58,911 nucleotides of DNA from Nitrospirota bacterium (lineage in GTDB: Bacteria; JACPQY01), in NCBI GenBank assembly GCA_016190245.1, contig JACPQY010000016.1:1-58911 (forward strand). The letters are read 5' to 3'. A program made the translations under genes and the position numbers. This document shows, in pieces, positions 6,040 to 57,004 of this stretch; within the stretch, counting starts at the first letter, position 1, and each line of letters opens with the position of its first letter. The notes below the pieces were generated by a model. That model ran no database searches and was not told the origin of the DNA. It saw only the letters and a list, made by a program, of their open reading frames with translations.

Positions 6040-6123
6040 GCGGTAAGCCACGGTGGGATAAGGGGTTAGGATACCCGTTTGCGCCCGCTGATGCACGTCG
6101 CGCGAGATGTGATCTCGTTCTCT

Positions 6124-6272
6124 GGTAGCCGCACCCCCTTGCCGAGGATGGCATGGGGCCATGCTAGGTTGCGGCCCAGAAAGGGCCGCATGGAACATGG
6201 CCTTCACGGGTGCGTCTGCGTCTTCGGATGCGGGCTCCCTGTCCGCCCCCCGGCGAAAAAGCCCGCGGCTAC
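6124..6272 (+). repeat. Interspersed element, copy B (left bracket of tetR)
   Basis: This 149-bp copy begins with GGTAGCCGCA and ends with CGCGGCTAC. It is almost identical to the reverse complement of copy C (7137-7284). The two share variants such as CATGCTAGG and CCCAGAAAGG that copies A and D lack, and they differ visibly only near the terminal hairpin. It lies between glgP and tetR, so B and C form long inverted repeats around the tetR gene. Confidence 0.85.
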
Positions 6273-6330
6273 CAAACCAAACCCAAGGCCCACACCGTTA
6301 GCCGCGCCCCTTGGGGCGCGTCCAGGGGGC

Positions 6331-8854: not shown

Positions 8855-10139
8855 CTTCCAGAGCCTCGAAGACCTCCGTTTCGTCGCGGAGAAGTGCCCG
8901 CGCTGCTCGCTGTGCAAGTTCCCGCCGCTCACGCGCGTGGAGCACGGCGGCTTCGCGGGCATCTGCCCCAGCTACGAGGAGTTCAAGTTCCATGCCGCCT
9001 CGGGCAGCGGCCTTCTCATCATGGCCATGAGCATCCTCGACGGCCGAAGCGAGCCCAACGAGACGGTTCGACGGTTCGCGTTCGGTTGCACGGCCTGCGG
9101 TGGCTGCGATGTGGCGTGCAAGTACAACACGGACATCGAGATCCAGGAAACTATCCTCCAACTGCGCGCCCATCTCTTCCGCACCATCGGGCCCCTGCCC
9201 GCCCACCGGGCCGTCCTGGATGCGATCGAGAAGAAAGGCCATCCACTCACCGAAGCCGGCGAATCTGCGGGCGGCTGGATGTCCGATCTCGGGTTCCGCG
9301 ACGGGCAACCCGGCGCCGAATACCTGCTCTGGCTCGGTCCCCACTACCGATTCCAAAAGGAGACCCGGCGCGTGCTCGGCCGCATCCTCGCCCTGCTCCA
9401 TCGCGGGGGCGTCTCCTTCACTGCGCTGAGCGACGAGCCCTACACAGGGCGCGCCGCCCTCGAGATCGGCGATAGGGATCTCTTCCGGCGTTGCAGCGAG
9501 CACACTTCAGCGGCGCTGCGCGCCTCGCGCGCGCGGGCGGTCGTCTGCCTCTCGGCCGAGGACTACGCTACGCTGCGAGCCCTCACCCCCCGCTTCGCGC
9601 CGATCGAGAAGCCCGTTCTGCACATTGTGGAGATCTACGACGAACTGGTCCGGCGGCGGAAGCTGACGCCCCGCGCACGCGTTCGCGCAACGGCCGTTTG
9701 GCATGACAGCAGCTACCTCGGCCGTTTGTCGGAGCCGTACGCGCCGTGGACCGGACAGAGAAAGAAGGTGGAGGGACAGATCGCGGTGTACGATCCGCCG
9801 CGGCCGGTCCGCAGTGGTGCGGAGGGCTGCTACGAGCCGCCCCGCCGCGTCCTGCAAACGCTCCCTGGCCTCGAGATGCGCGAGTTCCACCGCCGGAAGG
9901 AATACGCCTTCGACAGCGGCGAGACCGGCCAGGCCGCCGCTGCGAATCCCGACTTTGCCCTCAGCACAGCGCGCCGCCGCGTGGCGGAGGCGCGGGAAGT
10001 CGGGGCCGACACCATCGTCACGGAGTGCCCCCAGAGCGCCTACTGGCTATCGAGGGCCTCCGGCGCGACGGGGCCGGCGATCAAGATCACAACGCTCACC
10101 GACCTTCTGGCGGAAAGCGTCAATGGAGGTGTGTCATGA
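8841..10139 (+). CDS. HdrD/GlpC/GlcF-like Fe-S protein with degenerate CCG region
   Basis: The ATG at 8841 follows GGGAGGTGCCC, a good ribosome-binding site, and gives 432 residues. Two [4Fe-4S] motifs lie in the N-terminal part: CPRCSLCK with a distal CPS (about residues 22-45), and CTACGGCDVACK (about residues 78-90). This is the usual pattern of electron-transfer partners for flavin dehydrogenases. The C-terminal half aligns by eye with the CCG (cysteine-rich) domains of that family, but the cysteines are mostly replaced. HDSSYLGR stands where HDPCYLGR is usual, and the later CCG box reads AFDSGETG. Only ECPQSA keeps a cysteine. It probably passes electrons from the adjacent FAD subunits to quinone or another acceptor. 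Confidence 0.75.
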   Translation: MLSNNFQSLEDLRFVAEKCPRCSLCKFPPLTRVEHGGFAGICPSYEEFKFHAASGSGLLIMAMSILDGRSEPNETVRRFAFGCTACGGCDVACKYNTDIEIQETILQLRAHLFRTIGPLPAHRAVLDAIEKKGHPLTEAGESAGGWMSDLGFRDGQPGAEYLLWLGPHYRFQKETRRVLGRILALLHRGGVSFTALSDEPYTGRAALEIGDRDLFRRCSEHTSAALRASRARAVVCLSAEDYATLRALTPRFAPIEKPVLHIVEIYDELVRRRKLTPRARVRATAVWHDSSYLGRLSEPYAPWTGQRKKVEGQIAVYDPPRPVRSGAEGCYEPPRRVLQTLPGLEMREFHRRKEYAFDSGETGQAAAANPDFALSTARRRVAEAREVGADTIVTECPQSAYWLSRASGATGPAIKITTLTDLLAESVNGGVS

Positions 10140-15532: not shown

Positions 15533-15657
15533 TGGTTTTGGTGGTCATGCCGGGGGGGAAACACCCGTTCCCATTCCGAACACGGCCGTTAAGCCCCTCA
15601 GGGCCGATGATACTATCCGCCGCTGGTGGATGGGAAAGTAGGTCGCTGCCAAGACCA
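15533..15657 (+). rRNA. rrf: 5S ribosomal RNA, isolated gene
   Basis: The conserved core is unmistakable: CCCGTTCCCATTCCGAACAC, GGCCGTTAAGCCCC, and GATGATACT followed by GGGAAAGTAGGTCGCTGCC. I set the ends from helix I, where TGGTTTTGG (15533-15541) pairs with CCAAGACCA (15649-15657) with one G-U pair. That gives 125 nt, slightly long for 5S, with a somewhat extended helix IV/V (ATCCGCC...GGTGGAT). Pairing can extend two bases further on each side. No 16S, 23S or tRNA gene is adjacent: the neighbours are pgl and the PfkB kinase, both on the minus strand. I see no clear terminator after it. Confidence 0.95.
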
Positions 15658-21126: not shown

Positions 21127-22884
21127 CTACGCGAGCGCCGCGCGGACGGCCTCGCTCAGGCGCCTGAGCCCCGTTTGAACATCCTTCCCGAGATGAACGC
21201 GCAGGACGCGCCGTCCGCGCTCGGCCAGGACGGTCAAGTCGCCTCGCGCCTGAGCCGCCTTGACAGCGCCAAAGGTGTACGGCTCACCGGGGACCGGTAA
21301 GTCGACCGCGTCGTCGCAGGTCACCTGGAGAAACACCCCCGTGTTCGGTCCGCCTTTGTAGGCCTGTCCCGTGGAGTGCAGGAAGCGAGGACCGAATCCA
21401 ACACACGTGGCCACTCGCCACCTGTCGCGTACCGCGTGACGGATGTTCTGGAGGGCGCCGAAGTGATCGTCCTTCATTTCAACATAGGCGAGGAGCGCGA
21501 AGTAGTCCCGTGGTCTCAGTCGGTCTAGGTGGGCGCGGATCCATCCTTCGAAAGTGTTCCGGACGTCCACGGCTGAACGAATCGCGGTCGCGTTGGCCTC
21601 GTCTGCATAGAGGCGGGTTCCATCCTCCTCGATGAGAGGCGTCTCGGACGGAAGCCGTCCGCTCTTCGCGGACTCGGCCATGAGGGCGAGTGTGGCGACT
21701 TTGCTCGCCTCCACGTCCGGCTGGTCGAAGGGGTTGATCCCTATGATCGAGCCGGCCACGGCCGTGGCCAACTCCCACCGGAAGAACTCCCGACCTAGAT
21801 CGTAGGTGTCCGCGATACCGATGCGGACCACGGCGTGCCCTGCCCTCTCAAGGGCCTCCACCGCGCGGTCCTGGGCCGGATCGGGCGCCTGCTCCAATCG
21901 CAGATAGGCGAGGAGCCGGTCGTCACCGTATGCCTCCGGAGGCCCGAGACCTTCGAGATCGACCGGAATGAGCCCTTTGCCGACCTTCCCCGTCGATTCA
22001 GCGAGGAGTTGCTCGAGCCACGCCCCCAAGCCCGCTACACCCGGCGAGGCCACGAGTGTCACCTTGTCTCTCCCCTGCAGCGCGCCCGCCCCGAGAACCG
22101 CCCCCAACAGGACGCCTGGGTTGTCCACAGGAAGGACGTCCGCCGAGCAGAGACGGACCATGTCCGCGGTCCGCTCCAGGAGTCGCCTTACGTTCAACCC
22201 CATGACGGCCGCAGGGACTATCCCAAAATCCGAGAGCGCAGAAAAACGTCCCCCGATGCTCGGGATGCCGTGGAATACGCGCCGGAAGCGGCTCTGCTCC
22301 GCCACTTTCTGCATCCTGGAGCCGGGGTCGGTGATGGCGATGAAGCGATGGCCGGCACGCTCGGCGCCCACTACCTGCTTCGCCCGCTCGAAGAAATACT
22401 GCTCAAAGATGTTGGGCTCGAGCGTGCTGCCGGACTTGCTCGATACGATGAACAACGTCCTCGAAAGATCCACCACCCGCTCCAGCGCGAGGACCTGGGC
22501 CGGGTCCGTGGAATCGAGGACGTGCAGCTCCGGATGGCCCGCGATCCGCCCGAATGTTCTCTTCAGCACTTCGGGGCACAGGCTCGACCCCCCCATGCCG
22601 AGCAGCACGACGTGGCCGAAGCCCTCGCCCCCCAGCTCTCCGGCGAACCGGGTCAACTCGTCCACGCGCTGAAGCTGATCGTGAACGATTCCGAGCCAGC
22701 CCAGCCATTCCGATTCATCGCGGCCCGTCCAGAGCGTGGCGTCACGTTCCCACAAACGTTTGAGCTTGCCCTCCGCAGCCCATGCGTCCACGGCCGCGCT
22801 CACGACATTCCCCAAGCTGCCGGGCAAAACCACCTCCTGGCGAGCATGCCTCAGGGTGCGGACCCACCCGCGGTTGGCGGCCAT
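21127..22884 (-). CDS. pgi: Glucose-6-phosphate isomerase, Tal-Pgi-related
   Basis: This enzyme interconverts glucose-6-phosphate and fructose-6-phosphate. The ATG at 22884 begins 4 bp after the rpiB stop and gives 585 residues. The SIS-fold signatures are clear: GHVVLLGMGGSSLCPEVLKR near residue 115, FIVSSKSGSTLEPN near residue 165, and GGRFSALSDFGIVPAAVMG near residue 230. The pattern resembles the isomerase half of bifunctional transaldolase/glucose-6-phosphate isomerases, yet no transaldolase domain is attached and none is found elsewhere in the operon. An upstream in-frame start at 22944 would overlap rpiB and looks non-native. Confidence 0.88.
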   Translation of the reverse strand: MAANRGWVRTLRHARQEVVLPGSLGNVVSAAVDAWAAEGKLKRLWERDATLWTGRDESEWLGWLGIVHDQLQRVDELTRFAGELGGEGFGHVVLLGMGGSSLCPEVLKRTFGRIAGHPELHVLDSTDPAQVLALERVVDLSRTLFIVSSKSGSTLEPNIFEQYFFERAKQVVGAERAGHRFIAITDPGSRMQKVAEQSRFRRVFHGIPSIGGRFSALSDFGIVPAAVMGLNVRRLLERTADMVRLCSADVLPVDNPGVLLGAVLGAGALQGRDKVTLVASPGVAGLGAWLEQLLAESTGKVGKGLIPVDLEGLGPPEAYGDDRLLAYLRLEQAPDPAQDRAVEALERAGHAVVRIGIADTYDLGREFFRWELATAVAGSIIGINPFDQPDVEASKVATLALMAESAKSGRLPSETPLIEEDGTRLYADEANATAIRSAVDVRNTFEGWIRAHLDRLRPRDYFALLAYVEMKDDHFGALQNIRHAVRDRWRVATCVGFGPRFLHSTGQAYKGGPNTGVFLQVTCDDAVDLPVPGEPYTFGAVKAAQARGDLTVLAERGRRVLRVHLGKDVQTGLRRLSEAVRAALA

Positions 22885-22888
22885 CGTC

Positions 22889-23353
22889 CTATCCCGTGTG
22901 GCGGTTCGCGTAGCGCTTTTCCAACGCTTTGACCTTCTCGACACGGCGCCGATGCCGTTCCTCGCCGCCGAACGATGCCGCGAGGAACGCCTTCACGAGT
23001 TCGAGCGCCGTGGCCGTTCCGATCACGCGCCCCCCCATCACAAGCACGTTCATGTCATCGTGCTCCACGCCCTGGTGAGCCGAGTAGACATCATGGCAAA
23101 GACCCGCGCGGACGCCCGGGATCTTGTTGGCGGCCACGCTCGCGCCCACCCCGCTTCCGCACACCAGGATGCCGCGCTCCGCTTCGCCACGCATAAGAGC
23201 GCCGCCCACCTTCTCTGCAAAATCGGGATAGTCGGTCGGTTCGGTGCCGTGCGCCCCCACGTCCACCACCGCGTGACCCAGGCTGCGAACGAACCCCAAG
23301 ACTTCCTGCTTGAGTGGGAAGCCCGCGTGGTCCGATCCTACCGCAACGCGCAC
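22889..23353 (-). CDS. rpiB: Ribose-5-phosphate isomerase B
   Basis: This enzyme interconverts ribulose-5-phosphate and ribose-5-phosphate. The product is 154 residues from a GTG start. RpiB motifs are present: [14 protein letters not shown] at the N-terminus, [16 protein letters not shown], and [28 protein letters not shown] with the active-site cysteine, then [12 protein letters not shown]. It lies between tkt (9 bp) and pgi (4 bp) in the operon. Confidence 0.95.
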
Positions 23354-43360: not shown

Positions 43361-43395
43361 CTTCACCCTTCACGACTCACTCTTCACGATTCACG
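43361..43395. repeat. TTCACGA-type short tandem words at the end of the giant gene
   Basis: The segment reads as imperfect tandem units of TTCACG/CTCACT (CTTCACCCTTCACGACTCAC continuing TCTTCACGATTCACGG). It overlaps the last codon region of the 4146-residue gene. The same words occur at 12560-12590. It is probably a 3'-end repeat family. Confidence 0.4.
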
Positions 43396-46300
43396 GCGTG
43401 GGATCGTTCACCTTGTTCAGGAAGTACAACCCCCCGTCGCTCGTGCCGATCATGAATTTCTGTTGCCCCGAGTTGTAGCCGACCTGGCCGATCGTCACCC
43501 CCGAGCCGAAATCGTACGTCTGGATCACGTTCGCAGCGCTCTCGTCGATGTAGTACACCTTGCCGTTCGCGTTCCCGACCACCATGACGCCTGAGATCAG
43601 GAGACCCCCGTTGGTGAAGGCCGATGTCGAGCCGCCCGGGCGGAAGGGGTAGCCTGTCACAGCCGCCGGCGTCGTATCCAAGACATAGAAATGGCCATCC
43701 GCGTCGCCGTACTCAACCCTCCAGTTCCCCCACTTCACATAAGGGGCGGCGGTGATGGGGTAGACGCAATTGTCCAGGTTCGCAACGGAGTGGTTGGTCG
43801 TATCCCTGTACGGGTAGCTCCCGAGGTTCGCAAGACCCGAGGCATTGTCCAACCCGTGCATGCGACCGCCGTCGTCTCCCACGTGGATTCGGCCTCCCAA
43901 GAGGGTCGTCAAGCCGTTGACGTTGTGCAGGGCTGAAGCGCTGTTGTCCGTCTCCACGCTCCCCGCCCCGGTCGTGTTCACGCGGTAGATGTGGGCCGTC
44001 CCGGTGCCGGGGCACCCCGGGCTCTGCCTCGATCCCACGTACAGATAGACCGTGCCGGAAAAATCCTTCCAGGCCGGCGCGGTGTGCACCCTCGAGGCGG
44101 CGCCCACGTTTTTCGGAAGGGTCTTGTCGGAAATCTGGATCCCGAAAATCCGGGCCGCATCGGAGGTGTTCTCACCACCGAAGTAGAGGTTGTTCGCGTC
44201 GTAGATGAGCGGCGACGTGATCTCGTCCACGGCCGATCCGCCGTCCGAATACGGCGTGTTCCAGGCGCAACCGGCGGCGGGCACTTCCAGCGCCTGGCTC
44301 ACACTGTCATCGGTCAGGAGGAAGACCTTCCCCACCGACCCCGGATCCGCCTTCCCGGTCGCAACGTAGAGAACGTGCAGCCCCGTGTCGGTCGTGTCTC
44401 CGTCGTTGTTGAGATCGCAGTCGGGGTTGAATGAGGCCTCATCCTTCGTGTCCCAGATCGGGGTGCCCAGGAGATCCCCGTCCGCGTCGGCGATGTCGTA
44501 GGTGTAGAGCGGGTTGCCCGCGGTGTCGCGAACGTAGATGCGGTCGGCCGTGCCGGCCCCTCCCACGTTCTTGAAACCCACATAAACGGCGTACGGTGCG
44601 TAGGTGTTCCAATCGTAGGCCAGCGTCGGAAAACCGCCCCCGATGTCCCCTGCCGTATCCGAGGCGCACGACTGAAGCCAGTTAATGGTCGCGCCATTTA
44701 CCTCCTGTTCTTTCGAGGAACCGCGGCCCGGGCCGTTGGCCACGTCGCTGATATCCTCCACGCACAGGTAGGTGTCCGTGCTGCCGTTGTTGTCTTCGAA
44801 CCGGAGGTTGTACTGCCCGGCCCCCACCGCACCCCAGTAGATGTCCGGAGACTTGGCGATGAGCGTGGCCACCTTCACCGTCATGTGTCGGGCGCCCGCC
44901 GCGGCGTTGATGTTGCTGAAGGTGATCCCCTCCAGCTTGGTGATCGTCGGCGTGTTGGTACCGTCACCGACCTGGAGACCGTTGCCGGAGCCATAGCTGA
45001 ACGCGAGGCCCGTGATATCCACCTCGCCGTAGATCCGGAACCTGAATCCTCCGGAACCCGGGGCTGTCTTGGTGACCGTGGCGCTGGCGCTCGAGGCCTT
45101 GAACTTCCCGGGGTTGGATGCCGCGTAGCTCGCCTGGAAAGTCGAGGTGTCCGCAAGACGCAAGGTGGAGGCGCCAGCCATCTGGAACACGCCGCGCTGG
45201 GACACGGTCACGTCCGCATTGGCAACGAGCGTCCCACTCGAGCCGCCCGTGTTGAAGGTGGCCGTGCCACTCCCGCCGCCAATCGTCATCGCCCCCGTGG
45301 AGTCCAATGTGCCCGCCCCCATGTTGAACGTGCCGCCCGTCAAAGTGAAGGTCCCCGTCGAGGTGAAAGACGAATTGCCCGCATTGAACGTGCCATCTGC
45401 CTGCGCGTAGTTGGTGTCGCCGACAGCCAACGTCATCCCCGCGTTCTGTGTGATCGTGCCCGTGTAGCCGCTCACGATGTTGATCCCCCGAACGTTCAGG
45501 TTGGCCGCGATGTTGCATGCCCCCAAGCCGTTTCCGTCGAACGTCGCCGTGTCGATCGAGGAGGGCGTGGTCCCGTTACTGGCGCCACCCGACGAATTGG
45601 ACCAGTTGCCCACGGTGGCGAAGTTGGACGCCGAGCCGCTGATCCAATACATCGTCGTCCCGCATCCCGCGCTGATCGTCCAGTTCGCCCCATTGTTCAG
45701 CGAATCCGTGCTGCTCCCGGCCGTGATCGTCAGCGTCCCCGCCTGGTCCATGACGTCCACGTCGTAGGCCGTGACCGAACCGGTGCCGCTCCACGTCCGC
45801 TGCGTGGGCGAGGCGCTTGAACGGATCAGGATGTCGTCCACGCTGCCGCAGCCCGCTCCGTTTCCGTCCAGGACCATGGCGCCGTTCACGGTGACACTTG
45901 AAACCCCGATCGTGATGTCCCCGGTGGACTCGTTCCTATAGATCCCGGACGAGCCCACGCTGATCCCCGCTGCTGTGACGTTGGCCGTCGTCTGCTTGAA
46001 CGTGCCCGAAGTGACTGTGAGCGTGCCGTTGACGGTCAGGTTCGCCGCCGGCGTCCACATCCCCGCTCCGTTGAACGCAAGATTGTAGTACGCGTTCCCC
46101 GCCGCGAGGGACGCGTAGGTGGACCCGCCCGAGTAGGTCGTGGTGCCGCTGTCGGTGTCGAACGTGGTGATCGTGACGGTCTCACCCCCCTGGAGCTGGA
46201 GGGTCCCGTTGTTGGCGAGAGTGGCGATCGTGACATTGAAGCCCGCCAGCCCGAAGGTGTCGTCGGCCCCGATCGTGAGTGTCCCAAAGGCAACCGTTCC

Positions 46301-49300
46301 ACCCAGGTTGACGGTCTTGCTGGCGCCGTCCACCGTGACCGTACCGAGGTTCTGCCCGTTCCCCGTCAGCGTGGACGTGCCGGAGCCGTCGAAGGTCCAC
46401 GTGCCCGTACCCTTCGTGACGGACCCGTTCGTCTGGATGATCACACTGCCGGCCGTGTTCACGTTCGGGTTGTACATGCCGAGGTCCAGGTTGCCGTCCG
46501 TGAGGGTCAAGTTCCCGTTCACGTCCAGGTTCCCGGAGATCACCACCTCGTCGCGCGAGGGTCCGATGGTTCGCCCGTAGAGGTCGTCGTTCGTGCCGTC
46601 CACCGCCGTCGCGTAGAGTCGCGCCGAGCTGGAGAGATTGATGCGAACGCCGTAGAGATCTGTAGGCGACGTATTGATGGGACCCTGCTCGTTGGTCCAC
46701 GTCGTCATACCGTCGGTGGAGCGCTTCCAGTAGACGTTTCCCGTGCTCGCCGTTCCCGGCGTGGTCCGCGCGGTGTACACGACATAAACGTCGCCGGTCG
46801 ATTCATCCACGGCGATCTTCGCGCCGGTGACGCCCTTCGAGTCGTTCGTGAGCACGTTGGTCTTGGCGGTCCAGTTCCCGTTCGAGTAGACGGCCGTCCG
46901 GATGTCGTCGTCCGCCCCGAGCGCCACGATGTCAGCCGCGTAGGCAAGATAGATCTTGTCGGTCGACTTGTCATAGGCAGCCCCGAAGGTCCCCACGTAC
47001 GTGGTGTTGTCGGTCACCGAGAGATCGATCGAGGTCCACCCCGCATCCCACGTGTCGGTCGAATCCGCATAGACCTTCGAGGCCAATCGGTCGCTACCGG
47101 GGTGATGCCGGATGACCACGATGTTGTTGTTGGCCAGTGGCACAAGTTGGATGAAGTAGTCGCCGACGGCCAAGACCCCGCTCCCTGCCTCCGTCCAGTT
47201 GGAAGCCTGAGTGCAGTCGCTCCCCGTCGGACACTTGATCACAAAGGCATCGGAATCATCGTTGATCCCCATGTAGAGGTCCCCGTCGGCTCCTTTGGTG
47301 ATGGTCGGGACGGCGCCGGACGTGGAGGAGAATGACCCGCCTTGGTTCGCCCCCGTGGCGTTGACGGGGGTTGTGACCAGATCGGTCGTCGTGTCCAGCC
47401 GCTCGTACCAGAGGTCGTCCGAGCCGCTGTCGATGGTGACAATGTGAATGTAGTTGCCGGCGCTGTCTCCCGGCGTCCAGCGGTCGTACCACGCGGCGAC
47501 AGCCACGCAGTCAGCCTGCGGATCCACGGTCACCGCCGCACCCCAGGTGGTGCCTCCGTCCGTCGTCTTGCTATAGGCGCAGATACCGGTGGAGTCCGTG
47601 TAGAATGCATAGCCGACATTTGCGCTGGTGAAAACGACCGTCGGACTGGTGCCCTGGTGGATGCCATCGGTGGAGTTGACGTTGGAGTCCACGGCCGCCT
47701 GACTGCTGGTGACGTCCGTTCCAGTGTTGTTGATCGTGAGGTGGTTGAACGTCACGGCATTCGTTGTGACGGTCTGTACCCGCGTCCCGTCCAGGGTGAT
47801 CGTGCCTCCGTTCGCGGAGAACGTGGGTGCGCCCGATACCGTCATGTTCTTCTCAATGGACAGTGTCCCGCTCGTTGACGTGAAAGTGCCGCCGGAGAGG
47901 ACAAAATTCCCGTTCACATCAATGGCCGAGTTCCCTCCCGTGAAGGTCCCGGCAGCCTGATCGAAGTGATTCACTCCGACGGTGAGGGTGACGGTCGAGT
48001 TCTGGGTAATTGTCCCCGTGTAGCCGCTGTTGATGTCCACCCCCCGGACCGAAGCGCTCGCGGCGAGGGTACAGTTCCCCGTCCCTCCCCCATCGAATGT
48101 GGCGGTGTCGTCGGTGCCGGGGGCGGTGGTGTTGTTGGCGCCGCCCGAGGACAGGGACCATCGAGTGTTGTCGCCAAAAGTGCCGGCGCCCGCCCCGATC
48201 CAATATTTCGTGACCGGGCAATTCGAGGAGAAGCTCCACCCCGATCCGTTGTTCCCCGAGTTCGTGCTGCTGTCCGCGTTGATCGTGATGCCGACCGTGT
48301 CCTGGTCCTTAACATCCACATCGTAGACCGTGAAGGTGCCGCTCCCCAACCAGTTCCGGTTCGTACCCGACACGGTGGAGCGGATGAGGATGTCATCCGC
48401 GCCGCCGCACCCGCCACCCCCCGCATCCAAGGTCATGGAGCCGCCATTCGATACGCCCCCGCCCCCCACGGTCAGGTCGCCGGTGGAAGTGTTTGTCCAC
48501 GTGGTGCCCGAAGCGAGGCTGAGCCCACCGGTCGTCACATTGTTCGCCCCCTGAGTGACCGTGCCCGTGCTCACGGTGATCGTGCCCACAACGTACAAGG
48601 CGGCGCCGAGCTGGAAATTGTCCTTGGTCGCGTTGACGTCATTGATCGTGAGGATGTAGTAGTCGGTTCCCGCGACGAAATCCGCAATGGTCCAGGTCTC
48701 GACCGCGCCGTCGCCGTCGCCCTTGTACTCGACCGTCCCTGAATCCGAGTCCGGTGTCGTGATCGTCAGGGCCTCGCTACCATAGAGTTGGAGCGTGCCG
48801 GTGTTCGCCAGTGTCGTCACGGTCAGATTGTTCCCGGCCAAGACGAGCTTGTCGTCCCCGCCGATGGCGAGAGTGGTGCTGGTCAACGCGCCACCACTCA
48901 ACGTCAGCGTGATGGCGCTGCCATCCACGGTGACCTTTCCCAGGCTCTGCCCGTTCGGGCTCAGCGTCACGGCGCCATTTCCGTCGAAGGTCCACGTGCC
49001 GCCGCCCGGGGTGACCGAGCCGGCTGCCGCGATGGACACGTTGGCGAATGTACTCACGTTGGGGTTGCTCACCGCAAGATCCAGATCGCCGTCGGTGACC
49101 GTGAAGAGCTTGTTGACGTCGAGGTTGCCGGACACCACGATGTCGTCGTTGCCCGCCGCCCCCGTGTTGTTGATCGTGAGGAGCTCAAAGGCCACACCGT
49201 TGGTGCCAAAGGACTGGTCCGCTGCGCCGTCCAACGTCACCGTGCCGGTCCCCTGCCGAAGCTCGCCGGCCGTTTGGATGTTGACATTGCCCGCCAGATT

Positions 49301-52300
49301 GGCGTTGACGTTGTTGGACATGAGGTCGAGACAGCCGTCCGTGACGGTGAGGTTACCGTTCACATCCAGAGCACCGTTGAGGGTCACGAGGTTATTGGCA
49401 GGTCCCACGGTGTTGCCGTAGAGAGGATAGTCCGGCACGTTGCTGACCCAAGCCACGTAGAGGCGTTGGGAGGACAGGATGTTGACGCGCGGATAGTAAT
49501 CGCCACTGACCGCGTTGAGGGGGCCCATCTCGGCGCCCCATGTGCTCATCCCATCCGTGGATTTCTTCCAATAAACATTGGATGTCGAGGCCGTGCCAGG
49601 CGTTGTCCGAGCGGTGTACACCACGTACAAGTCGGCGTTGCCCCAGTCGCGCGCGATCTTGGCCGCCGTGATGCCTTTCAAACTGTTTGTCACTACGTCC
49701 GTGTTGAGCGTCCAGCTCCCGCCGGAGTAGGTGGCGGTCCGGATGTCGTCGTCGTTGCTGCCGATCGTGGCCACGTTGGCCGTGTAGGCGAGGTAGACGT
49801 CGTTGTTGGTCGGGTTGACTGTCGCCCCGAAGCCCGCGTCGTAGGTGTTGTTTTCGTCGGCGGAGGCGTCGATATTCGTCCAGGAACCGGACCACGAATT
49901 CGTCCCGTCCGTGTACACCTTGGAGCGGACCGTGTTGGCGGAGATGTCCCAGACGATCGCGAGGATGTCGCCGCCGGCGAGCGGCATCAAAATCAGGTAG
50001 TCGTTCTGGAGATCGAAGGGGTTGGTGCCCGCCTCGGACCAGTTGGCCTGGTTCGTGCAATCCGCCCCGTTGGCGCACTTGATCACGAAGGAATCGCTCG
50101 TGTTTTGTATGCCGATGTAGAGGTCCCCATCCGTCCCTCGCACCATGGAGACGAAGGTGGCGCCGGCGGAGAACGACCCGCCCTGCGCCGTCCAGGAGGC
50201 GTTCACGGTGGTCGTCAGTCCATCGGTCGCCGTATCGAGCCGGGTGTAGTAGACGTCAGCGCCATCCATCGTGGCGACGTGGATGTAGTTGCCCGTGGTG
50301 TCCCCCGGGGTCCACCGGTCGTACCAGACGTCGATGGAGTAGCAATCCGTCTGCGCATCCACCACGACCTTGGAGCCCCACGAGACACCCCCGTCGTTGG
50401 TCTTCCGATAGACACAGTCCAGCGTGTCGTCGCGATAGAAGAGGTAGCCCGTGCTGGCGGTCACGAACACGACGTTGGACCCACCGCCCGGGTAGGCCAG
50501 AGATGCTGCCGTCAGTGCGTCCGGATTGGTTTGGCTGCCCGTGGCGGATCCACCCGTGTTGTTCAGCGTCACGTTGTTGAAGGGCTTGCTATTGGTGCGG
50601 AAGGTCTGGTCCGTCACGCCGTTGAGGAGGACCGTTCCACCGTTGGCCGAGAAGGTCGGCCCCGGCGATCCCACGATCGTGAAACCCCTGAGCACGCTCA
50701 GCGTCCCGCTCGTGGACGTGAAAGACGTTCCCGCATTGGAAAGGGCGAAGGGGCCGCTGGATGTGATGGCAGAATCGCCACCCGAGAATGTGCCGGCGGC
50801 CTGAGTGTAGCCGCCGGTCCCGAGGGTCATCGTAACGCCTGAGTTCTGCGTGATCGTGCCGGAGTAGCCGCTCACCACGTTGAACCCGGTCACGTCCACG
50901 TTGGCGGTGAGGGTGCAGTTGCCCAGACCGTTCCCGTCGAACGTGGCGGTGTCGAGCGTGCCTGGTGTCGTCCCGTTGCTGGCGCCGCCCGAGGAGTTCG
51001 ACCAGTTGCCCACGGTGTTGAAGTTGGCGGCGCCGCCACTGATCCAATACATCGTCGTGCCGCATGTGGTATTGATCGTCCAGTTGCCTCCGTTGTTCCC
51101 GGAGTTCGTCCCGCTCCCCACCGTGATGGAGGCCGCACCGGCCTGATCCATCACATCCACATCGTACATCGTGACACTGCCGGAACCACCCCACGTCCGC
51201 TGTGTCGGCGAAGCGCTTGATCGGACAAGGATGTCGTCTGTGCCGCCGCACCCCGCACCCGAGCCGTCGAGCCAGATCGTCCCGTTGTTCGTCACATTGC
51301 CGGCCCCGATGGTCAGATCGCCCGTCGATTGGTTGCGGTAGATCCCGGCGGATCCCATGCTGAGACCGCCCACCGTGTAGTTGCCGACCATCTGCTTCAG
51401 TGTCCCTGCCGTCACGCTGAGGAGGTTGTTTACCGTCAGGGCCGTCGCCTGCGTCCACGAGGCCGTGCCGTTGACGGTGAGGTTGTAGTACGTGCTCCCG
51501 GCGGCGAGAGAGGTGTAGGTCCCGCTGCCGTTGTATTCGGTCGTTCCCGAGTCGGTGTCGAACGTCGTGATCGAGACGACCTCGCCCCCCTGAAGCCGAA
51601 GCGTGCCGTTGTTCACGAGCGACGTGGCCGTGAGCGCATAGCCGCTCAGATCGAAGAGGTCATCGCTTCCGATCGTCAAGGTGGAGATCGTGACGGTTCC
51701 TCCCAGGTTCACAGTCTTCGCGGTCCCATCCGCCGTCACGGCGCCCACGTTCTGGCCGTTCGGGGAGAACGTGGACGTGCCGCTCCCATCGAATGTCCAC
51801 GTGCCGCTGCCCGCCGTCACGGACCCGCCCGACATGACGGTCACGTTGCCCGCGGTGTTCACCGCCGGGTCGTTGGTGTCCAGGTCGAGGTCGCCGTCCG
51901 TCAGGGTCAGCGTCCCGTTCACATCCAACGTCCCTGAAATCGTGACGTCGTCCAGCCCCGCCCAGCCGGACTGATTCAGCGTGAGGTTGTTGAACGAGAT
52001 GGAGTTGGTCGTGACTTTCTGGTCACGGACTTGGCCGTCTAGTGTGACCGTCCCCCCATTGGCGGTAAAGGTTGGACCGCCGGAAACGGTCAGGAACCAG
52101 GCCACGCTCATGTTCCCGGTCGTGGAGGTGAACGTGCCACCCGAGAGGATGAAATCCTCATTGATGTCGATCGTCGAATTGCCCCCGGCGAACGTCCCGG
52201 CGGCCTGGTCGTAGCCGCCCATCCCAACCGCCAGGGTCACTCCCGAATTCTGAGTGATCGCGCCCGTGTACCCCGAGTTGATATCGATGCCGTACACGCT

Positions 52301-55300
52301 CGCGTTGGCGGCCATCGCGCAGTTTCCGGTGCCACCCCCGTCGAACGTGGCCAGATCGTTGGAGCCCGGCGCCGTCGTATTGTTGGCCCCGCCCGAGCTC
52401 AGGGACCAACGGGTATTGTCGCCGAAATTCCCCGCAGAGCCCGCTATCCAATACTTCGTGGTGGGAGGCGTCAGATCGGCCAGGGTGGCGCCCAGGAGGT
52501 CGTTGTCCGTGACGACGAACCAGCTCACGAAGATCCGATCCCCCGACAAGATATTCATCTTCGCGCCATAGAGGTCGCCGGAAATCATGTTCACAGGGCC
52601 TTGTTCGGGGCCCCAGGTGGTCATGCCGTCCGTAGACTTGCGCCAATAGACGTTGGCGGTGGTCGGGTCGGGTGGATTCGTCCAGGCCGTGTAGATCGCG
52701 TAGACATCCTTCGAGTTCTCGTCGAAGGCGATCTTCGCGCCCGTGGGGCCCAACCCCGTATCGGTGAAGACGTCGCTCTTGCGGGTCCACGCCCCTTCCG
52801 AATAGATGGCCGTCTCGAAATCGTCAGACCCGTTCCCGATCCCTCCAAGGTCGCCCGCCCAACCCAGGTAGATGTCGTTCGTTCTCCGGTCCACCGTTGC
52901 GCCGAAGTGCGCCGTGTACACGCTGTTGTCGGATGTGCCCGCCCGCACGGTGGTCCACGCGCCGTCCCAGGAGTCGGTGGAATCGTGGTAGACCTTCGAC
53001 TCAATGGTGTCGGCCGGGCGGTCCCAATAGATGGCCAGGATGTTGGCGTTCGGCAGGGGCATCAGGATGAGCCAATCGTTGGTCAGGTTGAACGGATTGG
53101 CGCCGGCTTCGACCCAGTTCGCGGCGTTCGTGCAGTCCGCTCCGTTCGCGCACTTGAGGACGAATCCATCGCTGTCATCCGGGATACCCATGTAGACGTC
53201 GCCGTCGCTGCCCTTCGTGATCGAATGGAAATCGCCTTGGCTGAACGTCCCCCCCTGCCCGGCGCCGGAGGCGTTCACCGTGGAGGTGAGAGAGTCACCG
53301 CTGGTGTCGAGCCTCGTGTAGAAGATGTCGTTGTAGTCGAAGGTAGAGATGTGGATTTTCGTCCCCGAGTTGTCACCCGGCGTCCACTGGTCGTACCAGA
53401 CGGCGATCCGGGCGCAGTCCGCAACGTTCACGCTATCGACCCGAATGGGAGCCCCCCACGTCGACCCCCCGTCCGTCGTCTTGCGGTAGACGCATTCCTG
53501 GCCGCTGTCCGCATAGAACGCGTAGCCGACCTGATCGGTCGTGAACACGGTCGTCGGGCTCGTCCCGCTGTGTTTCGACTGCGTCGAGTCCGCCGCCGAG
53601 TCGATCGCGACGACGCAGGCCGAGTCGAAGGTCCAGTTCGGTCCATTGTTCCCCGTGTTGGTGCTGTGTCGGGTGCGGATCGAGGCACCGCCGGCCTGAT
53701 CCTGCACGTCCACGTCCTGGATGGCGAAAACTCCCGAACCGCTCCAGGAGCGCTGCGTGCCGGATGAGGTGGATCGAATCTGGATCGGATCGCCGCCCAG
53801 GCAGCCCCCGCCGCCGCCATCGAAGAGGATGCGACCGCTGTTGGAGACGCCGCCGGACCCCAGCGAGACGTCCCCCGTCGAAGAATTCTGCCACTCGCCG
53901 GAGGAACCGATCGAGACCGTGCCGGCCGTCACGTTGGCTGTTGTCTGCACGAGGATCCCGTCCGTTATCGTCAGGGTTCCGTTCACGGCAAGGGCCCCGG
54001 ACACGGACACGCGGTCGAGACCGGAGGCGCCCGTCGCGTTGACGGTCACGTTGTTGAGGGCGACTCCGCCCGTCGTGACGGCCTGATTGATCGTGCCGTC
54101 GAAGGTAACCGTGCCGGAGTTGTGGTTGAAGGTGGGACTGCCCGAGATGCTGACGGTGCGGGAGAGCGCAAGCGAGCCGCTGCCGGACGTGAACGTCCCA
54201 CCGGACAACGTAAAGTCGCCGTTCACGTCGAAGGTCGAGTTCCCACCGACGAACGTACCGGCCGACTGTTTGAAGTCCGAGGCCCCGACGGTGAGCGTGA
54301 CACCGGTGTCCTGGGTGACGGCGCCGGTGTAGCCGGACTTGATTTCAAGGCCGCGGACGCTCGCGTTGGAGGTAAGCGAGCAGTTCCCCGTCCCGCCGCC
54401 ATCGAAAACGGCCACGTCATCGGCCCCCGGCGCGGTCGTGTTGTTCGCCCCACCCGAGGAGGTGGACCACCGCGCGTTATCGCCGCAATTCCCGCCCGTC
54501 GACCCGATCCAGTACTTGCTGGTCGGCGGAGCCAGATCCACGACGGAGTCACCGTAGAGGCCGTCGGGTGTGGCCTCGTACCACCCCACGAAGATGCGCT
54601 CCGTCGAGAGAATGTTGATCGTGACGCCGAACATGTCTTCGGAGCCCGTGTTGATGGGGCCGTTCTCGCCGCCCCACGTCAGCATCCCGTCACTCGATCT
54701 TTTCCAGTAGACGTTGGCGGTTGTGGCGGTTCCCGGGGTGGTGCGGGCGGTGTAGACGACGTAGACATCCTTCTTGTCCTCGTCCAGCGCAATCTTGACG
54801 CTGGTGATCCCTTTCGCATCGTCGGTGAGGGCGTTGGTCCGCGCCGTCCACACTCCTCCGGAGTAGATAGCCGTGCGGATATCGTCGTTGGTCCCGAGGG
54901 TGCTGTTGTCCGCACAGTAAGCGAGGTAGATCTCGTTCGTTTCGCGGTCCACCGTCGCCCCGAATCCGCCGTCGTAGGTCGTGTTTGCGGAGGGGGCGAG
55001 ATCGATGTCGGCCCACGCCCCGTCCCACGTGCCGCTGCTATCGTCGAAGACGTTGGACTGGAGCACCCCGGTATAGGGGTCATAGTCGATGGCCATGACC
55101 TTTCCGCCGGCGAGGGGCATTAACAGCGGCCAGGCGTTTTGGGGAGTAAACGGATTTGTGCCCGCCTCGAGCCAGTTCGTTCCGACCGTGCAATCCGATC
55201 CGTTCGCACACCTGACGACGAACGAATCCGCCAGGGAGATGGTCCCCATGTAGAGGTCCCCATCGGTTGCCTTCGTAATGGCGCCCTCGCTCGATCCCGC

Positions 55301-55831
55301 GGAAAGGGTGGCGGTCTGGCCCGAGTTCGAAGATGCGTTGACGGTGGAGCTGAGTGAGTCGCCGCTCGTGTTCAGTCGCGTGTACCAGAGGGCGCCTGAG
55401 CCAGAATCCCAGGTGACGATGTGGATGTAGTTCCCGGTCGTGTCCCCCGGCGTCCAGCGGTCGTACCAGACGCCGATGCCGATGCAATCCGTCTGCCCGT
55501 CTACCGTTTGGGCCGCCCCCCAGCCTGCGCCGCCGTTGGTGGTTTTGCTGTAGACGCAGGTTCCACCGGAATCTCGATAGAACACGTAGCCCGTCGAATC
55601 GTCTGTGAACACAACCATCGGGCTTCCGCCGAGGTGTGACCCCTGAACGGTGCTGACGGTTCCGTCAATCGTCACCTCGGCCGCCAGCGCCGTGCTCAGT
55701 CCCCATAGGGATATCCCGCACCAGACTACCAAAGCGGCGGGCCACCTTGGGCCTTGGGATATAGCTACGGATCCTAGAATATTGCGCAAGTAGCTCTCCA
55801 GCCGCCTAGCTTGGAGCAAGCCCAGTGCCAC
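43391..55831 (-). CDS. Giant secreted protein with alternating Asp-box propellers and repeat modules
   Basis: The GTG at 55831 sits just after AGGTT and gives 4146 residues. A signal peptide ends at TALA-AEV (about residue 51). Four large modules, at about residues 60-430, 755-1120, 1785-2140 and 2730-3090, carry sialidase-style Asp boxes (KTTDGGTTWGA, KRSTDGMTTWTNE) and the phrase WYDRWTPGD. Between them are five copies of another module beginning YWIGS-x-G-x-FGDNTRWSLSSGGANNTT (near residues 440, 1125, 1594, 2544 and 3394). These run into strand-forming repeats such as GTFTGGNSAIDVNGNF, typical of extracellular beta-solenoids. The last 420 residues (from about 3725) look like a PQQ-type propeller with GDADGHFYVLDTT and VGNANGKVYYIDESA. 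No LPxTG, PEP-CTERM, autotransporter barrel or transmembrane anchor is visible. A close paralogue of the C-terminus begins at 57162. The function is probably surface adhesion or matrix. Confidence 0.88.
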   Translation of the reverse strand: MALGLLQARRLESYLRNILGSVAISQGPRWPAALVVWCGISLWGLSTALAAEVTIDGTVSTVQGSHLGGSPMVVFTDDSTGYVFYRDSGGTCVYSKTTNGGAGWGAAQTVDGQTDCIGIGVWYDRWTPGDTTGNYIHIVTWDSGSGALWYTRLNTSGDSLSSTVNASSNSGQTATLSAGSSEGAITKATDGDLYMGTISLADSFVVRCANGSDCTVGTNWLEAGTNPFTPQNAWPLLMPLAGGKVMAIDYDPYTGVLQSNVFDDSSGTWDGAWADIDLAPSANTTYDGGFGATVDRETNEIYLAYCADNSTLGTNDDIRTAIYSGGVWTARTNALTDDAKGITSVKIALDEDKKDVYVVYTARTTPGTATTANVYWKRSSDGMLTWGGENGPINTGSEDMFGVTINILSTERIFVGWYEATPDGLYGDSVVDLAPPTSKYWIGSTGGNCGDNARWSTSSGGANNTTAPGADDVAVFDGGGTGNCSLTSNASVRGLEIKSGYTGAVTQDTGVTLTVGASDFKQSAGTFVGGNSTFDVNGDFTLSGGTFTSGSGSLALSRTVSISGSPTFNHNSGTVTFDGTINQAVTTGGVALNNVTVNATGASGLDRVSVSGALAVNGTLTITDGILVQTTANVTAGTVSIGSSGEWQNSSTGDVSLGSGGVSNSGRILFDGGGGGCLGGDPIQIRSTSSGTQRSWSGSGVFAIQDVDVQDQAGGASIRTRHSTNTGNNGPNWTFDSACVVAIDSAADSTQSKHSGTSPTTVFTTDQVGYAFYADSGQECVYRKTTDGGSTWGAPIRVDSVNVADCARIAVWYDQWTPGDNSGTKIHISTFDYNDIFYTRLDTSGDSLTSTVNASGAGQGGTFSQGDFHSITKGSDGDVYMGIPDDSDGFVLKCANGADCTNAANWVEAGANPFNLTNDWLILMPLPNANILAIYWDRPADTIESKVYHDSTDSWDGAWTTVRAGTSDNSVYTAHFGATVDRRTNDIYLGWAGDLGGIGNGSDDFETAIYSEGAWTRKSDVFTDTGLGPTGAKIAFDENSKDVYAIYTAWTNPPDPTTANVYWRKSTDGMTTWGPEQGPVNMISGDLYGAKMNILSGDRIFVSWFVVTDNDLLGATLADLTPPTTKYWIAGSAGNFGDNTRWSLSSGGANNTTAPGSNDLATFDGGGTGNCAMAANASVYGIDINSGYTGAITQNSGVTLAVGMGGYDQAAGTFAGGNSTIDINEDFILSGGTFTSTTGNMSVAWFLTVSGGPTFTANGGTVTLDGQVRDQKVTTNSISFNNLTLNQSGWAGLDDVTISGTLDVNGTLTLTDGDLDLDTNDPAVNTAGNVTVMSGGSVTAGSGTWTFDGSGTSTFSPNGQNVGAVTADGTAKTVNLGGTVTISTLTIGSDDLFDLSGYALTATSLVNNGTLRLQGGEVVSITTFDTDSGTTEYNGSGTYTSLAAGSTYYNLTVNGTASWTQATALTVNNLLSVTAGTLKQMVGNYTVGGLSMGSAGIYRNQSTGDLTIGAGNVTNNGTIWLDGSGAGCGGTDDILVRSSASPTQRTWGGSGSVTMYDVDVMDQAGAASITVGSGTNSGNNGGNWTINTTCGTTMYWISGGAANFNTVGNWSNSSGGASNGTTPGTLDTATFDGNGLGNCTLTANVDVTGFNVVSGYSGTITQNSGVTMTLGTGGYTQAAGTFSGGDSAITSSGPFALSNAGTSFTSTSGTLSVLRGFTIVGSPGPTFSANGGTVLLNGVTDQTFRTNSKPFNNVTLNNTGGSATGSQTNPDALTAASLAYPGGGSNVVFVTASTGYLFYRDDTLDCVYRKTNDGGVSWGSKVVVDAQTDCYSIDVWYDRWTPGDTTGNYIHVATMDGADVYYTRLDTATDGLTTTVNASWTAQGGSFSAGATFVSMVRGTDGDLYIGIQNTSDSFVIKCANGADCTNQANWSEAGTNPFDLQNDYLILMPLAGGDILAIVWDISANTVRSKVYTDGTNSWSGSWTNIDASADENNTYDAGFGATVNPTNNDVYLAYTANVATIGSNDDDIRTATYSGGSWTLNTDVVTNSLKGITAAKIARDWGNADLYVVYTARTTPGTASTSNVYWKKSTDGMSTWGAEMGPLNAVSGDYYPRVNILSSQRLYVAWVSNVPDYPLYGNTVGPANNLVTLNGALDVNGNLTVTDGCLDLMSNNVNANLAGNVNIQTAGELRQGTGTVTLDGAADQSFGTNGVAFELLTINNTGAAGNDDIVVSGNLDVNKLFTVTDGDLDLAVSNPNVSTFANVSIAAAGSVTPGGGTWTFDGNGAVTLSPNGQSLGKVTVDGSAITLTLSGGALTSTTLAIGGDDKLVLAGNNLTVTTLANTGTLQLYGSEALTITTPDSDSGTVEYKGDGDGAVETWTIADFVAGTDYYILTINDVNATKDNFQLGAALYVVGTITVSTGTVTQGANNVTTGGLSLASGTTWTNTSTGDLTVGGGGVSNGGSMTLDAGGGGCGGADDILIRSTVSGTNRNWLGSGTFTVYDVDVKDQDTVGITINADSSTNSGNNGSGWSFSSNCPVTKYWIGAGAGTFGDNTRWSLSSGGANNTTAPGTDDTATFDGGGTGNCTLAASASVRGVDINSGYTGTITQNSTVTLTVGVNHFDQAAGTFTGGNSAIDVNGNFVLSGGTFTSTSGTLSIEKNMTVSGAPTFSANGGTITLDGTRVQTVTTNAVTFNHLTINNTGTDVTSSQAAVDSNVNSTDGIHQGTSPTVVFTSANVGYAFYTDSTGICAYSKTTDGGTTWGAAVTVDPQADCVAVAAWYDRWTPGDSAGNYIHIVTIDSGSDDLWYERLDTTTDLVTTPVNATGANQGGSFSSTSGAVPTITKGADGDLYMGINDDSDAFVIKCPTGSDCTQASNWTEAGSGVLAVGDYFIQLVPLANNNIVVIRHHPGSDRLASKVYADSTDTWDAGWTSIDLSVTDNTTYVGTFGAAYDKSTDKIYLAYAADIVALGADDDIRTAVYSNGNWTAKTNVLTNDSKGVTGAKIAVDESTGDVYVVYTARTTPGTASTGNVYWKRSTDGMTTWTNEQGPINTSPTDLYGVRINLSSSARLYATAVDGTNDDLYGRTIGPSRDEVVISGNLDVNGNLTLTDGNLDLGMYNPNVNTAGSVIIQTNGSVTKGTGTWTFDGSGTSTLTGNGQNLGTVTVDGASKTVNLGGTVAFGTLTIGADDTFGLAGFNVTIATLANNGTLQLQGGETVTITTFDTDSGTTTYSGGSTYASLAAGNAYYNLAFNGAGMWTPAANLTVNGTLTVTSGTFKQTTANVTAAGISVGSSGIYRNESTGDITIGVSSVTVNGAMVLDGNGAGCGSVDDILIRSSASPTQRTWSGTGSVTAYDVDVMDQAGTLTITAGSSTDSLNNGANWTISAGCGTTMYWISGSASNFATVGNWSNSSGGASNGTTPSSIDTATFDGNGLGACNIAANLNVRGINIVSGYTGTITQNAGMTLAVGDTNYAQADGTFNAGNSSFTSTGTFTLTGGTFNMGAGTLDSTGAMTIGGGSGTATFNTGGSSGTLVANADVTVSQRGVFQMAGASTLRLADTSTFQASYAASNPGKFKASSASATVTKTAPGSGGFRFRIYGEVDITGLAFSYGSGNGLQVGDGTNTPTITKLEGITFSNINAAAGARHMTVKVATLIAKSPDIYWGAVGAGQYNLRFEDNNGSTDTYLCVEDISDVANGPGRGSSKEQEVNGATINWLQSCASDTAGDIGGGFPTLAYDWNTYAPYAVYVGFKNVGGAGTADRIYVRDTAGNPLYTYDIADADGDLLGTPIWDTKDEASFNPDCDLNNDGDTTDTGLHVLYVATGKADPGSVGKVFLLTDDSVSQALEVPAAGCAWNTPYSDGGSAVDEITSPLIYDANNLYFGGENTSDAARIFGIQISDKTLPKNVGAASRVHTAPAWKDFSGTVYLYVGSRQSPGCPGTGTAHIYRVNTTGAGSVETDNSASALHNVNGLTTLLGGRIHVGDDGGRMHGLDNASGLANLGSYPYRDTTNHSVANLDNCVYPITAAPYVKWGNWRVEYGDADGHFYVLDTTPAAVTGYPFRPGGSTSAFTNGGLLISGVMVVGNANGKVYYIDESAANVIQTYDFGSGVTIGQVGYNSGQQKFMIGTSDGGLYFLNKVNDPTP

Positions 55832-56032: not shown

Positions 56033-57004
56033 TCAGGAAGAAGGACGCCAGACGTCGTGGCCCATCTTGTCGATGTACCCCACATGCCCCCCCGCCGAGA
56101 CTTTTGACAAACCGGCACGAAATGGCGAAGCAAACGTATATCGTGGCGCGATCTTCATGTTCCCAGCAAGATCGAGGAATCCCCACACGTGCGTGGCCTT
56201 CACAGGGGCCAAACCGTCCGAAAACGGCCCGACTTGTTGGTAGGCCGGCTCGATCACCCATTTCCCCTCCCGATCAACGAACCCCCACTGTTCGCCGCGG
56301 CGGGCCGCCGCCAGCCCGTGCGAAAAGGAACCGATCTCGTCAAACATTGGATCCAGCTCCCACTCCCCACGTTCGTCGACCAGCCCGTATCGCCCCCCGA
56401 TGGCGGCAGGCGCGAGGCCATCGGAGAAATCCCCGGCCCACTCGAAAGAATACGGGATGGCCAGTCCCCCCCCCCGATCAAGGAAACCCCATCGCCCCCC
56501 CTCGCGAACCCTTGCCAGTCCTCCCGAGAACGGCGAGGCTGCCTCGAACCGCGGCTCGACCACCAAGCGCCCCTTCGAATCCACGAAACCGAACCTCGCA
56601 TTCAAAAGGACGAGCCCCCGTCCATCCGAGAATGGTTGCGCTTCCTCGTATCCCGGGGGAATCCGCTCACGCGCATCTCGATCCACATAGCCCCACCGGA
56701 TTCCAACCTTCACCGCTGCCAAGCCCTCGGAAAAGCGGCCCGCGGCGTCGAAGGAGGGGGGGACAATCCATTCCCCCTTCGCATCCAGGTAGCCCCACTT
56801 GAGGCCCCTTGCCGCGGCCGCGCGGCCTTCGTAGAAGTCGCCTGCCGCATCGAACGAGCAGGGGATGGCGAGCCTCCCGCGCCCATCCATGTAGCCCCAG
56901 CGTCCGCCTTGAACCACGGCAAAACGATCGCTGGAGCCGGAGCAGGCCGCAAGGGCAGCCACCATGGCAGCCACGAAGCCGATGCGAGGCGCAAGGGAGT
57001 GCAC
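56033..57004 (-). CDS. WG-repeat lipoprotein
   Basis: The GTG at 57004 gives 323 residues. The N-terminus is a lipoprotein signal (FVAAMVAALAAC, lipobox with cysteine near residue 21), so the protein is probably anchored in a membrane and faces the periplasm or outside. The rest is eight WG repeats of about 33 residues plus a partial ninth, each built as RWGYxDxxGxxxIPPxFDxAGxFSEGLAAVxxG. The third repeat is the most altered. WG repeats form small beta modules, often in exported proteins, and no enzyme activity is implied. It lies between two paralogous giant secreted proteins on the same strand, so it may help present or anchor them. Confidence 0.88.
   Translation of the reverse strand: MHSLAPRIGFVAAMVAALAACSGSSDRFAVVQGGRWGYMDGRGRLAIPCSFDAAGDFYEGRAAAARGLKWGYLDAKGEWIVPPSFDAAGRFSEGLAAVKVGIRWGYVDRDARERIPPGYEEAQPFSDGRGLVLLNARFGFVDSKGRLVVEPRFEAASPFSGGLARVREGGRWGFLDRGGGLAIPYSFEWAGDFSDGLAPAAIGGRYGLVDERGEWELDPMFDEIGSFSHGLAAARRGEQWGFVDREGKWVIEPAYQQVGPFSDGLAPVKATHVWGFLDLAGNMKIAPRYTFASPFRAGLSKVSAGGHVGYIDKMGHDVWRPSS

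Follow-up and report, generated by a model that had tools for sequence, protein, structure and literature searches.

The seven-bladed lectins of the PLL type bind fucosylated and O-methylated sugars between their blades (PMC12203525), and the enzymes of family GH145 and the related lyases use His and Arg, the lyases with an Arg neutraliser together with His or Tyr (PMC8377490). Large adhesins in which a beta-propeller is combined with a repeat stalk are represented by BapP of Pseudoalteromonas (PMC12153261) and the LapA-type RTX adhesins, and giant ORFs of Omnitrophota and Patescibacteria encode very long secreted or surface proteins, for which a role in adhesion has been proposed (PMC10066038). 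Here we analyzed a giant gene of a Nitrospirota bacterium that shares features with each of these systems. The window, that is, the whole stretch of DNA analyzed, comprises 58,911 nucleotides of contig JACPQY010000016.1. It also carries a 5S rRNA gene (15537-15654, plus strand) next to a series of genes for pentose-phosphate and glucose metabolism, with no other Rfam match at the gathering score in the window, and a gene for a 605-residue protein (21127-22944, minus strand) that matches phosphoglucose isomerase over about one third of its length only.

The giant gene is a single uninterrupted frame of 4,146 codons, in agreement with the sequence-only reading, which had described one 12.4-kb gene. 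Compared with the listed GTG start, the TTG of residue 16 has the better Shine-Dalgarno sequence, and an apparent signal peptide, read by eye, ends ..STALAA ahead of the first propeller. Two kinds of module follow, namely P, an Asp-box propeller of ~380 residues, and S, which opens with YWI..W..SSGG and continues as a beta-solenoid. Their order is P1-S1-P2-S2-S3[P3]-S4[P4]-S5-CT, where CT is a propeller-like C-terminal domain. The five YWI modules counted earlier could thus be placed by their YWI..SSGG caps (residues 440, 1127, 1595, 2543 and 3395), and the different C-terminal propeller described at that time was confirmed as a propeller-like domain. The composition of the protein is skewed (G 14%, T 14%, N 7%). 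The features are as follows.

43391..55831, minus strand: whole gene, 4146 aa; GTG start as listed, residue-16 TTG as alternative start
55679..55831, minus strand: probable N-terminal signal peptide, residues 1-51, ..WPAALVVWCGISLWGLSTALAA followed by EVTID (read by eye)
54542..55678, minus strand: propeller P1, residues 52-430 (from alignment)
55442..55468, minus strand: WYDxWTPGD motif of P1
53621..54532, minus strand: YWI-capped solenoid S1, residues 434-737, uninterrupted
52481..53620, minus strand: propeller P2, residues 738-1117 (from alignment)
53372..53398, minus strand: WYDxWTPGD motif of P2
51071..52471, minus strand: YWI-capped solenoid S2, residues 1121-1587, uninterrupted
50552..51061, minus strand: first part of solenoid S3, residues 1591-1760
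49406..50539, minus strand: propeller P3, residues 1765-2142, inserted in S3 (from alignment)
50300..50326, minus strand: WYDxWTPGD motif of P3
48227..49387, minus strand: second part of solenoid S3, residues 2149-2535
47720..48217, minus strand: first part of solenoid S4, residues 2539-2704
46565..47707, minus strand: propeller P4, residues 2709-3089, inserted in S4 in the same loop as P3 (model pLDDT ~90)
47465..47491, minus strand: WYDxWTPGD motif of P4
45668..46546, minus strand: second part of solenoid S4, residues 3096-3388
44636..45661, minus strand: YWI-capped solenoid S5 and linker, residues 3391-3732
43394..44635, minus strand: C-terminal propeller-like domain, residues 3733-4146, common to three more genes of the genome
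57162..58868, minus strand: 3' end of the neighbouring gene, just upstream, which encodes this C-terminal domain too and is truncated by the end of the contig

Self-matches between modules reach E-values of 1e-80 to 1e-140, far above chance, and together with the alignment they confirm the homology of P1-P4, which had been recognized as four Asp-box propellers. The modules had also been described as near-identical, and this near-identity at the DNA level was thought to allow changes in copy number by recombination; neither statement held. The propellers show 50-52% protein identity to one another (P2-P4 to P1, 51-52%) and 64-70% DNA identity, DNA self-matches within the gene show 64-73% identity (the best long one ~70% over 1.2 kb), and exact repeats of at least 24 bp are absent from the gene. 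Recombination between modules is therefore not favoured at present, and a recombination hot spot arising from near-identical modules was ruled out.

The alternation of propellers with YWI modules that had been proposed fits the order P1-S1-P2-S2, but S2 passes directly into the S3 cap with no propeller between them, and P3 and P4 are nested inside S3 and S4. Both S1 and S2 contain the stretch '..NNxTxNxxGxxGLDxVxxSGxLxVNG' without interruption; S3 and S4 instead hold an entire propeller, flanked by '..VTLNNTG' or '..LTINNTG' on one side and by 'VTLNGALDV' or 'VVISGNLDV' on the other, and the flanks of this insertion are contiguous sequence in S1 and S2. The propeller tree supports P3 and P4 as sisters (98/87) but shows no further supported grouping that would unite P1-P4 among the cellular copies, and a DNA self-match (positions 4572-6317 versus 7413-9158 of the gene) covers solenoid and propeller together. 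The sister relationship and this joint self-match fit a history, proposed on sequence grounds, in which one insertion was followed by tandem duplication. Such a nested layout illustrates how a shared stalk can be fitted with new binding heads.

We modelled P4 within its solenoid (S4[P4]) using AlphaFold2 with 26 aligned sequences and obtained pLDDT values of ~90 across the propeller and mostly 60-85 across the solenoid. The P4 model matches the solved lectins BP39L, PLL, PHL, PLL4 and PLL5 with Z 26-28.5 over ~310-323 residues, the closest solved structure being BP39L (Z 28.5, 323 residues). It also matches the enzyme CylK, as well as BT3686 (GH145), BACINT_00347 and ulvan lyases (Z 25-27 for the last three). 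The best structural matches are seven-bladed, and the six-bladed NanA stands lower in the list. The S5 model matches parallel beta-helices (P22 tailspike, Z 12.1; Ag43b, Z 10.3). The models thus predict a seven-bladed propeller fold for the P modules and a beta-helix for the S modules. The C-terminal domain was modelled poorly and only in part (mean pLDDT 44 over the whole model, four sequences), with its last residues matching propeller blades.

Pfam and NCBIfam searches of the modules gave nothing over the cut-off, and the sole Pfam match of the whole protein was BNR_2 (PF13088) at 24.3 bits, below the curated cut-off of 31.4. PHROGs yielded no useful match to the modules and none that covered the propeller domain, and a PDB sequence search with the four window propellers alone returned nothing. 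With a profile, the best PDB match of the propeller was 5muk (BT3686, GH145; E 9e-4, 112 residues); the next was the rhamnose-glucuronate lyase FoRham1 (7esl; E 0.002), and PLL-type lectins were absent from the profile matches at E<=1. The WYDxWTPGD loop is near-invariant in all branches of the family (W78 47/49, D80 49/49, W82 48/49), as are Tyr38, Trp60 and Trp342; position 93 is His in 41/49 sequences and Tyr in 8. No Arg is invariant, either among the relatives, where the best column reaches 18/22, or in the 49-row alignment, where the best reaches 38/48 (79%) and the next 61%. We excluded a GH33 sialidase, in which these columns would have to supply the catalytic arginine triad; the triad is absent. 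The lack of sialidase residues had been noticed before, and because these catalytic residues are absent, the structural or ligand-binding role suggested at that time is the better reading.

To follow the propeller in cellular genomes, one genome per species of GTDB r220 was scanned with a pattern, which yielded 15 relatives, nearly all from Patescibacteria/CPR and several from groundwater. One copy in this set comes from a 'Candidatus Brocadia' bin (L016, 9920-11167); its frame is lost near the domain end, the remainder matches in another frame, and the contig may be a contaminant of that bin. A full-length propeller was present in 3/287 genomes of an even sample of Patescibacteria, and 0/59 other relatives had the propeller. 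In the Patescibacteria proteins examined, the propeller is N-terminal, behind an apparent signal peptide, and in one of them (L009) it is followed by Fn3 and a dockerin-like tail. A sensitive profile of 21 rows, searched over 386 diverse genomes, found the full-length domain in the window's own genome and in none of the 385 other bacteria; partial matches of Asp-box type occurred in 37 other genomes.

Propeller relatives were also found on 29 IMG/VR contigs, all of which (29/29) match the profile at E <=1e-21 (best 1e-67), mostly over the whole domain, and no match was obtained in the isolate phages and plasmids searched. Five of the phage proteins (L072, L074, L079, L082 and L092) open directly with the propeller (MAD.. 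or MAE..) and have no signal peptide. The neighbouring genes encode terminase (L089, L075), portal (L078, L087), a virion structural protein (L082) and a tape-measure protein (L079), and this gene context suggests that the phage propeller genes encode virion proteins. In L079 (4950-8363), the propeller runs on into a region that weakly matches a baseplate hub (GPD, E 8.5e-4, under the cut-off), and its position near the tape-measure gene makes a tail-tip receptor-binding arrangement possible. In the propeller tree, the cellular copies, including those of the window, lie on one side of a branch of 0.98 changes/site with support of 100/100; the sole phage-contig copy that groups with them is L077, on a long branch. 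Since this branch is long and fully supported, any exchange between phages and cells is old and recent transfer is not indicated. A single query with the S1 solenoid against viral contigs found nothing.

Three other genes of the genome also encode the C-terminal domain of the giant, and two of these lie on other contigs; none of 385 genomes outside it has the domain at E 1e-3 (0/385). The three are the truncated neighbour, a frame of 2,363 codons that also has Fn3 and MAM-like domains, and a second giant of 4,737 codons (L029, 5102-19312, minus strand). The second giant has a DUF2341-like N-terminus, as judged by eye, and '..VSFRWAD..' repeats that resemble a repeat in a Patescibacteria propeller protein (L018). 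Between the two window genes that share the C-terminal domain sits a gene (56033-57004, minus strand) for a WG-repeat protein with eight repeats (Pfam E 3e-88) and a lipoprotein-like N-terminus. The family relative examined, G001, encodes a giant whose solenoid is of the same type and whose C-terminal domain is related (29% over 267 residues, E 1e-16), but its genome gave no match to the Asp-box propeller. On the basis of these two genomes, the solenoid and C-terminal domain appear to be a scaffold particular to the lineage, to which the window species would have added the Asp-box propellers as a payload. This sharing of the C-terminal domain, the nesting of P3 and P4, and the occurrence of the propeller family on phage contigs and in Patescibacteria had all escaped the sequence-only reading.

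On balance, we lean with modest confidence towards a secreted multivalent surface or matrix adhesin, in which a beta-helix stalk bears glycan- or polymer-binding propellers. The giant would be secreted by Sec and would cross the outer membrane by some further route; two secretins are present in the genome. The five YWI-capped units may form the beta-helix stalk carrying four seven-bladed propellers, with P1 and P2 mounted in line between stalk units and P3 and P4 plugged into a loop between coils. The C-terminal domain, which other large proteins of the organism also possess, probably anchors or exports them, and the four propellers along the stiff stalk would bind glycans or other surface polymers with high avidity. 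We infer surface display, ligand binding and the role of the C-terminal domain from the predicted closeness of P4 to lectins, whose PLL members bind sugars, the beta-helix matches of the S5 model, the near-invariant aromatic-acidic loop, the relatives in apparently secreted Patescibacteria proteins and among phage virion genes, which are places that use binding modules, and the lineage scaffold found in four genes here and in the propeller-free giant of the family relative. However, PLL-type lectins are missing among the sequence matches, seven-bladed propellers have many roles, and the best sequence match is a glycoside hydrolase. Secretins apart, we identified neither a dedicated secretion system nor an anchor or sorting signal for the giant: its C-terminus has no Pfam or NCBIfam match to a type IX sorting domain, a type Va autotransporter beta-barrel is absent, the C-terminal part matching propeller blades instead, and type I secretion genes are absent among the window genes scanned.

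The weak match to BT3686 keeps an enzymatic role as a rival, in which hydrolases or lyases of the seven-bladed GH145/PL24/PL25-like superfamily would be arrayed on the stalk. The two PDB profile matches, the structural similarity to BT3686, BACINT_00347 and the ulvan lyases, and the conservation of His93 and Asp80 agree with it; yet lyases use an Arg neutraliser and the propeller family has no invariant Arg, His93 is replaced by Tyr in 8/49, and the presence of four copies on one stalk, like the use of the module among virion genes, is at least as compatible with binding as with catalysis, so that we regard enzymes as rather improbable. It is also unlikely, in our judgement, that the giant is a structural coat or matrix fibre whose propellers are spacers or protein-protein contacts with no glycan ligand. 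Its compositional skew, its size and a scaffold common to other giants of the genome would suit such a fibre, but the relative G001 has the scaffold without the propellers, which are thus not needed for it, and conservation of the aromatic loop across copies from phages, Patescibacteria and the window speaks for a binding function that has been retained.

The homologues among virion genes further raise the idea of a decoy or phage-derived module mimicking a phage receptor-binding domain and blocking the attachment of phages or others. We consider this very unlikely, because the phage and cellular copies are separated by the long branch described above and no defence context was seen among the window genes scanned. 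Finally, the genome assembly is a draft (86 contigs, 85% complete) and the contig ends inside a related gene, which could point to an assembly or binning artefact. Repeat-driven misassembly is unlikely because the gene contains no exact repeat of at least 24 bp; codon usage agrees with that of the other contig genes (correlation 0.98), GC matches as well, and the same C-terminal domain is found on two other contigs, which leaves an artefact extremely improbable. Contamination by a CPR contig was rejected, since GC and codon usage fit and paralogues lie in the same genome.

Beyond the preferred adhesin reading, we tentatively raise a broader and doubtful proposal, namely that the WYDxWTPGD propeller is a new glycan-binding family for cell-surface recognition, used in phage virions (in one case apparently as part of a baseplate-hub protein), in episymbiotic Patescibacteria and in the four-fold stalk array described here. 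If the propeller binds glycans, it would link the recognition modules of uncultivated phages, CPR bacteria living on other cells and giant surface proteins, and the linking domain is small (~380 residues) and testable.

Compared with the described systems, the window propellers share the predicted seven-bladed fold with the PLL/PHL/BP39L/CV39L lectins (Z 26-28.5); however, those lectins are small and soluble, whereas the window protein carries four copies on a stalk and shows no sequence match to them at E<=1. GH145 (BT3686) and the PL24/PL25 enzymes resemble them in fold, in Asp-box repeats and in the weak BT3686 match, but differ in that the window propeller family has no invariant Arg. Proteins of the BNR/Asp-box sialidase-like type (BNR_2, GH33) likewise have Asp boxes, and BNR_2 reached 24.3 of the 31.4 bits required, but their arginine triad is missing here and seven-bladed lectins are better structural matches. 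Unlike the Omnitrophota and Patescibacteria, for whose giants we found no description of a beta-helix with nested propellers, the window host has a 3.3 Mb genome with ample sugar metabolism and is not reduced in the manner of a symbiont. BapP combines a single propeller of five blades with Ig-like repeats, whereas Pfam identifies no Ig, cadherin or RTX repeats in the window giant. No described family with this module order was known to the sequence-only reading, and we likewise found no description of the nested architecture or of the WYDxWTPGD propeller family in the domain libraries (Pfam, NCBIfam, PDB profiles and PHROGs) or literature searched; propeller-bearing large adhesins and giant adhesion ORFs are, in themselves, known kinds of protein.
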